From Oscillospiraceae bacterium (GTDB lineage: Bacteria; Bacillota; Clostridia; Oscillospirales; Acutalibacteraceae): DNA of 64,000 nucleotides. Numbering within the stretch: position 1 is the first letter of the stretch; every line of letters begins with the position of its first letter. The stretch spans positions 1 through 64,000 of the forward strand of contig SVPH01000007.1 of the NCBI GenBank assembly GCA_015065965.1, read 5' to 3'. Shown here one piece after another: positions 4,578 to 6,743 of the stretch. The position numbers were made by a program, and so were the translations under genes. The notes under the pieces were generated by a model. That model worked only from the letters and a program-made list of their open reading frames with translations. It did not search any database and had not been told where the DNA came from.

Positions 4578-6743
4578 ATGACAGAAAAATTCAATATTGC
4601 GGGCTATGTCCGCATTTCGGTCGATGATGAACTTGACCGAGACAATGTTTCAATTGAAAACCAGAAGGCAATTATTGCCGATTATGTAAAAATCAATTTC
4701 CCCGGTAGCGATCTCACCTTTTTTGAAGAACGTGACCGCTCAGGTTACACTTTTGAACAGCGTGAAAGCTATCAGGAAATGCGGAAGGGTCTTTTATCCC
4801 ATAAATACGATATTCTTATCGTAAAAGACTTTTCAAGATTCTCGCGCCGTACCAGTCAGGGTCTTATGGAATTGGAAAATTTCCGTGACGAAGGTGTGCG
4901 TATTATTTCTATTGGCGACACCGTTGACTTTCCCAATAACAACGACTGGTTCAAAATTTCAATTCATTTTATTATGAACGAAATGCCCGTTACGGAAACT
5001 TCAAGAAAAGTCAAGAACGTTATAGAACGTCGCCAGAATGACGGTGAATGGATTTGTGCCGCGCCTTACGGCTATATCATCAATACCCATAAGAAATTTG
5101 AGATTGTTCCTACAGAAGCAGAGATCGTCAGAAAAATCTTTGACCTTTATATTAATGAAGGTATGGGTTATAACAGCATCGCAAATTATCTGACCGACAG
5201 CGGTGTTCCGACGCCGAGAATGTCAGAGCAGATGCGAAAGGAAGCCGAAGGTAAAGAGTATAAGCGGCAGGTCAAGGCTGTCTGGGCAATCGAAACGATT
5301 CACGGTATACTTCAGAACGATTTCTATATCGGCACTCTGAGACAAAGCAAATATACACGGGTAAAAATCAACGGCAAAAGCAAAAAACTTGATGACGGAA
5401 ACCATATTATCCATGAAGATCATCATCAGGCAATTATTGATTACCGTACTTTCGCTCTTGCCCGTGCGGCTATGGAAAGCCGTTCACGCAACAACTACCG
5501 CGGCGTAAAAATCAACGATAATATTTATTCAGGTCTCCTTAAATGCGGTGACTGCGGAAGTCCTATGTTTGCTACGGGCGGACAGTCAAGAAAATCTGCC
5601 TATACCTGTGGAACCTATCACAGAAGAGGACTCAAAGGTTGCACAAGTCATCATATCCGTGTGGACAAGCTTGATGAAGTCGTAAAGCTTTACGTTGAAA
5701 AAATCATGCAGAATTCTGCAGCTATGATTGATCAGCTCAATGCTGACCTTGAATGCGAAAATGAGAATATTGAAGAAACCGAGCAGACGGCAGAAAATAT
5801 CGCCAAGGTTCTTGTTGATCTGAACGAAGAACTTAAGGTAACAAAACGTATGCGCATCCGCGAAATCATGAAAAATCCTGACCGCGAGGCGGATATTGAA
5901 GATATGTACGACGAGCTTGAATCTGATTTGCAAAGAAAGATTGACGGTCTGAATCATCAGCTTGATATGCTCTCGGACAAACGCAACACAATTATAAGAG
6001 TTAACCGTGTTGCAAAAACTGCAATCGATATTTTCTCTGATATTCTCACAAAAGAAAAGCTCGAGCGTAATGATCTCGAGCTGATAATCGAAGCAATTTA
6101 TGTTTTTGAGGATCATATTGAAATAAAGCTTCAGCGCGATATTGATATGATTCTCAGATGCGGAACACTTCCCGAACCCTTGGAGGAAGCCGCAAATTTT
6201 AATTCAGGCACTGTAGATATCTTATCTGCTGAATTAGTCCAAGTGAGCAGAAATCACTCGGACAAGGTTTACAGTGTCAATGTTATCAGTAACGGCGACC
6301 CGTTGGAGATTTACACGGATGCGGACGGTGAGGTAATTTTTAAAAAATATTCGCCTATCGGAGAACTATCTTCGATTACGGGGCAGTATGCCGATGTGCT
6401 TGCGAGGGGTACGGGCCTTGCGGTTGTTGTTACCGACAGGGACAGTGTTATCGCATGCGCAGGCATATCAAAGAAAGAGATGCTTGACCGCAGAGTAAGC
6501 CGCAGCCTTGAGGGGCTTATGGAGCGCAGAGAAAACTATGTGTGCTGCGTGGACAGTGAGCGAATGAAGCCCATTGAAGGTGTTGACAAAGAGGCAGCGG
6601 TAGCGTTCCCGATTGTAGGCGGCGGAGATGTTTCGGGCGCAATTGTGATGCTGCTCAACGAAAACGGCTCATGCCCTACGCAGACGGAAACAAAACTTGC
6701 TCAGATTGCGGCAAACTTCCTCGGAAAACAGATGGAAGAATAA
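4578..6743 (+). CDS. Large serine recombinase fused in frame to the SpoVT C-terminal (GAF) portion
   Basis: Resolvase catalytic domain (GYVRISVDDELDRDNVSIENQ), recombinase domain, zinc ribbon (LKCGDCGSPMF...YTCGTYHRRGLKGC), coiled coil, then GDPLEIYTDADGEVIFKKYSPIGEL...IAANFLGKQMEE matching the SpoVT C-terminus. Confidence 0.9.
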   Translation: MTEKFNIAGYVRISVDDELDRDNVSIENQKAIIADYVKINFPGSDLTFFEERDRSGYTFEQRESYQEMRKGLLSHKYDILIVKDFSRFSRRTSQGLMELENFRDEGVRIISIGDTVDFPNNNDWFKISIHFIMNEMPVTETSRKVKNVIERRQNDGEWICAAPYGYIINTHKKFEIVPTEAEIVRKIFDLYINEGMGYNSIANYLTDSGVPTPRMSEQMRKEAEGKEYKRQVKAVWAIETIHGILQNDFYIGTLRQSKYTRVKINGKSKKLDDGNHIIHEDHHQAIIDYRTFALARAAMESRSRNNYRGVKINDNIYSGLLKCGDCGSPMFATGGQSRKSAYTCGTYHRRGLKGCTSHHIRVDKLDEVVKLYVEKIMQNSAAMIDQLNADLECENENIEETEQTAENIAKVLVDLNEELKVTKRMRIREIMKNPDREADIEDMYDELESDLQRKIDGLNHQLDMLSDKRNTIIRVNRVAKTAIDIFSDILTKEKLERNDLELIIEAIYVFEDHIEIKLQRDIDMILRCGTLPEPLEEAANFNSGTVDILSAELVQVSRNHSDKVYSVNVISNGDPLEIYTDADGEVIFKKYSPIGELSSITGQYADVLARGTGLAVVVTDRDSVIACAGISKKEMLDRRVSRSLEGLMERRENYVCCVDSERMKPIEGVDKEAAVAFPIVGGGDVSGAIVMLLNENGSCPTQTETKLAQIAANFLGKQMEE
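6294..6743 (+). pseudogene. spoVT: 3' part of spoVT (separated from its AbrB-like N-terminus by the element)
   Basis: GDPLEI(Y)(T)D.DGEVI.KKYSPI.EL pattern through FL.(R/K)QME; remaining length of ~149 aa fits loss of the first ~30 residues of a ~178-aa SpoVT. Confidence 0.85.

Follow-up and report, generated by a model that had tools for sequence, protein, structure and literature searches.

A central question about serine integrases is how they make integration one-way; the answer known so far is a separate directionality factor. One locus in the window, i.e., the whole stretch of 64,000 nucleotides analyzed from an Oscillospiraceae genome, raises a related question: does the C-terminus of such an enzyme depend on whether its element is integrated? 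The original prediction held that a recombinase gene runs without a separating stop codon into the host gene spoVT, with the junction somewhere within 6231-6743, and that in the integrated state the recombinase ends in the SpoVT GAF domain. A single open frame of 721 aa at 4578-6743 (+ strand) indeed leads from the recombinase into SpoVT without an intervening stop, and the junction was located at 6294-6299, where it reads GGC-GA-C (Gly573/Asp574). The fusion comprises the following features.

4578-6296, + strand: large serine recombinase, residues 1-573 (Pfam matches, AF2 model, 32-sequence alignment)
Residues 7-158 of the 721-aa fusion: Resolvase domain (Pfam)
Residues 178-302 of the 721-aa fusion: Recombinase domain (Pfam)
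Residues 317-370 of the 721-aa fusion: Zn_ribbon_recom (Pfam)
6297-6743, + strand: 3' part of the host spoVT (AbrB hairpin end and GAF domain), forming the recombinase C-terminus (TIGR02851 27-180, PF15714, PDB 2w1t, translation)
Residues 596-720 of the 721-aa fusion: SpoVT_C (Pfam, E 3.5e-37)

The features of the recombinase class are present (Resolvase catalytic domain, Recombinase domain, zinc ribbon and coiled coil). The closest solved recombinase by sequence is the SPbeta integrase SprA/YokA (PDB 9dxh, 9dxd; E 2.2e-18, residues 6-461); this match ends at residue 461 and leaves the C-terminal extension and the attP region outside. An extension of about 45 residues (528-573) follows the conserved recombinase fold, and the P arm of attP forms part of its coding DNA. 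On the host side, positions 27-180 of the SpoVT family TIGR02851 (NCBIfam) were aligned to fusion residues 570-720, and the SpoVT structure 2w1t is a sequence relative of the fused GAF part (E 8.9e-28). In the AF2 model of the fusion, the recombinase is folded to about residue 527, residues 528-590 are disordered and a confident SpoVT domain follows, with pLDDT mostly 80-92 in the GAF domain; overall mean pLDDT is 69.7 and pTM 0.39, and the arrangement of the domains is unreliable.

To see how often this arrangement occurs, GTDB genome contigs were scanned, yielding 36 loci, and 35 genomes were searched for spoVT. All complete, uninterrupted recombinases (32/32, 48-95% identical) continue in frame into SpoVT_C, and every junction falls at the same GDPL motif. 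The other four loci are one frameshifted within the recombinase yet joined to SpoVT (L058) and three cut by contig ends (L053, L060 and L061). Two of the 32 are copies in one genome (L059 and L062, contigs C29 and C37 of G429); they show the same fusion with identical scores and are possibly a duplicate assembly. A further fusion was found in G493, which belongs to another family of the class. Chance read-through is ruled out, since every complete relative has the in-frame fusion, and the fusion at 4578-6743 is confirmed as real and above chance. The C-half of spoVT was found in 35/35 genomes and a full-length spoVT in none (0/35). The N-half (about residues 1-34), where found, lies upstream; it was absent from the search results in some genomes. 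In 15 cases it is on the same contig and strand, and the coordinates then put the element size at about 7-36 kb. In Pseudoflavonifractor sp. MSJ-30, the start of spoVT is present a second time in partial form (positions 1-27; G421:C1:29625-29705, L071 926-1006), about 550 bases before the N-half, and is perhaps the trace of an earlier event.

The two parts of the fusion have different histories. Among L028-L031, recombinases that are 91-94% identical are followed by SpoVT_C parts only 37-42% identical in most pairs, the mismatch being seen even at 93-94% recombinase identity. Closely related pairs have a dS of 0.18-0.45 in the recombinase and mostly of 0.7-1.4 in SpoVT_C (two pairs lower). Low recombinase dS against high SpoVT_C dS in the same pairs indicates that the insertions are mostly independent; together with the identity mismatch, it indicates that the element spreads laterally and joins the local spoVT each time. 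A single old fusion inherited vertically is ruled out by the same data.

The original prediction further proposed that the C-terminus of the circular form is set by the left end of the element. The window begins at the start of contig C44, and the left end was located in the same genome, on contig C49. There, SpoVT positions 1-35 lie at 6232-6336 (- strand), and after SpoVT residues 1-34 come 24 tail residues and a stop codon; the foreign tail reads MKATGIVRRIDDLGRVVIPKEIRRTMRIREGDPL, then MMTLGQSDIFCVNMLDLSKRMGII. A similar peptide after GD is encoded at 27 left ends, about 24 residues long with the consensus SQxTLxxWExFCFAMLDLAKRxGW and then a stop, a few of these tails being divergent (G418, G425). 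Comparison of the two junctions defined the attachment site as follows.

6274-6296, + strand: P arm of attP left in attR (GTGTCAATGTTATCAGTAACGGC), kept in relatives; 18/23 bases palindromic with the left end
6294-6304, + strand: sequence common to attL and attR, GGCGACCCGTT (attL/attR comparison)
6297-6298: inferred crossover dinucleotide GA, in the Asp574 codon

GA is common to both junctions in all pairs. Joining the element ends in silico gave a near-palindrome centred on GA in 26/26 pairs, with a mean score of 16.8/23 compared with 9.1 for attB, 9.9 for attL, 6.6 for attR and 6.0 for shuffled arms, which supports the join as the true attP. The predicted attP lies inside the recombinase gene, and translation across the joined ends continues in the recombinase frame into the conserved tail. 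The circle is thereby predicted to encode the recombinase with a native tail, and the claim about the circular form stands as a prediction from joined ends, strengthened by conservation of the tail and constraint at the protein level.

This constraint is concentrated in tail codons 9-24, where pN/pS is 0.35 in frame versus 1.13 and 1.21 in the two other frames; in the sequence after the stop, pN/pS is about 1.0 in all frames. Codons 1-8 have no in-frame constraint pattern, as expected for an attP arm. The in-frame constraint in codons 9-24 and the variation at third positions rule out that the tail is kept solely as attP DNA. Part of the constraint could come from the integrated state, in which the tail is in frame with the SpoVT stub. 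No further conserved gene was found next to the left end in the same orientation, and a tail profile search found no unsplit recombinase carrying the tail.

Insertions outside spoVT bear on the role of the tail. In a sample of the host family, a close recombinase was found in 16/398 genomes, 13 times in spoVT and three times elsewhere, and the three off-site hosts (G177, G360 and G170) all have a full-length spoVT (3/3). In G177 the recombinase is fused to another host ORF, and the tail is joined to the host ORF that the element interrupts. In G360 the recombinase stops a few residues past the junction and the left end lies in unrelated sequence; both junctions agree on GA, which is the best-supported dinucleotide there. 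The G360 tail is kept despite an in-frame stop just upstream, so it would have a coding context only in the circle, which weakens the view that the tail is kept solely as part of the SpoVT stub. In both genomes the tail accompanies the recombinase, not SpoVT. The third insertion, in G170, is a remnant.

Our preferred reading, which we hold to be somewhat probable, is that attP lies within the 3' end of the recombinase gene, that loss of the tail on integration acts as a state-dependent switch and that the SpoVT domain is a generic folded cap. In the circle, the gene would read through attP into the native tail of about 24 residues encoded at the left end. Integration at GA in the GDPL codons of spoVT would exchange this tail for the last ~147 SpoVT residues, split spoVT and leave the tail attached to the shortened SpoVT N-terminus; on excision, both genes would be whole again. 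The native tail would support the work of the circular form, integration, and its loss would lower or redirect the recombinase, the SpoVT domain being merely a cap. We infer that circles form at this junction, that the tailed protein is made and that the tail or its swap matters for activity; regulation by such a C-terminal swap is plausible. The SpoVT-fused enzyme must still excise the element, or a homologue act in trans, and this counts against a switch. More tentatively, the DNA rearrangement itself may switch direction: the tailed enzyme, made only from the circle, would integrate, and the form with the host domain would hold the element or excise it, regulators being unchanged. Fusing a domain, a directionality factor, to a serine integrase can change reaction direction in the laboratory (PMC5737554). 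Such artificial integrase-RDF fusions resemble the present case in that an attached domain changes direction; they use the cognate directionality factor, whereas here the partner is a host protein without a known role of this kind.

The swap could also be non-regulatory, which we regard as possible but rather less likely: attP would overlap the recombinase gene for compactness, the tail would help slightly and the fused enzyme would be equally good. An attP and attB in the same codon frame automatically give an in-frame result, and the conserved fusions therefore do not each count as a separate act of selection. Moreover, the conserved recombinase fold stops about 45 residues short of the junction, and the fused GAF domain is arbitrary host sequence, attached in the model through a disordered linker. 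This account has to reckon with a tail conserved to its last residues and under in-frame constraint, from which it follows that tail loss on integration probably has some effect.

An improbable alternative is a skin-like intervening element that leaves the chromosome as the cell sporulates and so reconstitutes spoVT. SpoVT itself works in the forespore, and it is the forespore chromosome that is inherited. Known elements of this kind are skin, SPbeta/spsM, gin/gerE and yin/yabG (PMC4191935, PMC5595907, PMC10747680). Like them, the present element carries a serine recombinase beside the break and divides a sporulation gene precisely at a short common core; both spoVT halves are open, and spoIVA was above cut-off in 30/36 hosts, so that most are probably spore formers. 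G082 offers a further hint: its contigs terminate precisely at the core GGGGACCC, which closes the spoVT 5' flank and opens the 3' flank, as if empty and filled sites coexisted, and the flank contigs overlap the attL and attR contigs by 99 bases (C42, C78, C104, C219; L124-L127). These forks suggest filled and empty sites in one sample, for which a strain mixture accounts no worse than excision; the G082 contigs showed no attP branch, which fits a mixture. Unlike the known elements, the spoVT element shows no sign of programmed excision in the sequences examined. It also differs in its target, a forespore regulator, in the fusion of recombinase and host gene, and in its lateral, mostly independent insertions. 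SPbeta is excised in the mother cell and remains in the spore genome (PMC4191935), which is at odds with a role in rebuilding a gene that acts in the forespore.

The original prediction had also suggested coupling of the recombinase to whatever the GAF domain senses, and this part was not supported. In its favour, folding of the fused GAF domain is predicted by the model. The partner, however, changes with the host, differing by up to ~60% under nearly identical recombinases, which makes a specific co-evolved interaction unlikely, and the three off-site elements end otherwise, without this GAF domain. As the integrated partner varies, tail loss is the sole change common to all integrations, which favours a tail-loss switch over GAF sensing; specific sensing is unlikely, and gating by the GAF domain seems to us very improbable. 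That the junction is an assembly or sequencing artefact hiding a stop or frameshift can be dismissed almost entirely: most of the genomes are metagenome-assembled, but the junction, with matching left ends, recurs across dozens of separate assemblies, among them that of an isolate.

In phage Giles, attP lies in the phage's own integrase gene. Archaeal suicidal tyrosine integrases (SSV1, pTN3 and pT26-2 types) also have attP in the integrase gene and were called exclusively archaeal in one review (PMC8371274); the present elements add a bacterial serine case. In both, integration alters the gene, but suicidal integrases are split into inactive N and C parts, whereas here the gene is broken at its extreme 3' end, which exchanges the tail and leaves the catalytic and DNA-binding domains intact. 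In the integration-dependent immunity of BPs-type mycobacteriophages, attP lies in the repressor gene and an ssrA-like tag is lost (PMC9262239, PMC4557955). There too, attP is within a coding gene whose C-terminus differs between circular and integrated forms, but the gene is a repressor, the integrase is of the tyrosine type and the site is a tRNA gene. The tail lost there is an ssrA-like degradation tag; the tails here end in GW, GII or similar, not LAA. The arrangement is a variant of these known kinds. Across dozens of related elements, one enzyme is predicted to exist with two C-termini that follow the state of the element, and this natural pair offers a ready comparison for the role of the serine integrase C-terminus. 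The element family also repeatedly splits spoVT, a key sporulation regulator, in gut Clostridia; a literature search found no paper on elements in spoVT.

Circular forms were sought in several collections. Several attP patterns, the first of which covers 17/26 expected attP sequences, gave no genuine match in host genomes or viral contigs; one match in a viral contig was due to chance and had no recombinase. No circular form was found in plasmids (best match 28% identity), in phages (a 71.5% match, L101, ends inside the P arm, and L102 is itself fused) or in viral contigs (relatives L133-L135 are fused and L136 is contig-cut). Contigs L060 and L136 stop exactly after GGYGA; attP and attR both continue with C, so attP does not explain these ends. 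Together with L101, these are independent contigs whose ends fall on or within the att region, as though the assembly graph forked at this point.

The recombinase is preceded in the window by other genes of the element.

2653-3225, + strand: CHC2 zinc-finger (DnaG-like) protein (PF01807, E 2.1e-17)
3222-4214, + strand: MobV-family relaxase (PF01076, E 3.6e-52; NF041497 MobV above cut-off)
4221-4469, + strand: small ORF of 82 aa just 5' of the recombinase, without a family match

Relaxase and integrase both lie on the window side, as in integrative and mobilizable elements, and the element is probably of this kind. From its position, the 82-aa ORF is a possible directionality factor. Cargo varies between relatives, as no relaxase was visible by eye in the smallest of them (6.9 kb, G415). 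There is no overlap between contigs C44 and C49, and if the two ends come from a single element it spans at least 12.5 kb. Scans for Rfam families and tRNAs gave no matches. The C49 side encodes a DUF6061 protein, a second large serine recombinase of the DUF4368 type (L004, 2690-4465) and a MobA/MobL relaxase (897-2432), which may belong to another element; with the latter two genes on the left-end contig, the element may be a composite or have another one nested within it. At 232-957 (- strand) of the window, a Sigma-70-like protein (regions 2 and 4) adjoins an HTH regulator and could control element genes. Beside spoVT, at 6824-10519 (- strand), lies a gene for a secreted-looking protein of 1231 aa, whose repeats resemble BspA-type leucine-rich repeats by eye.
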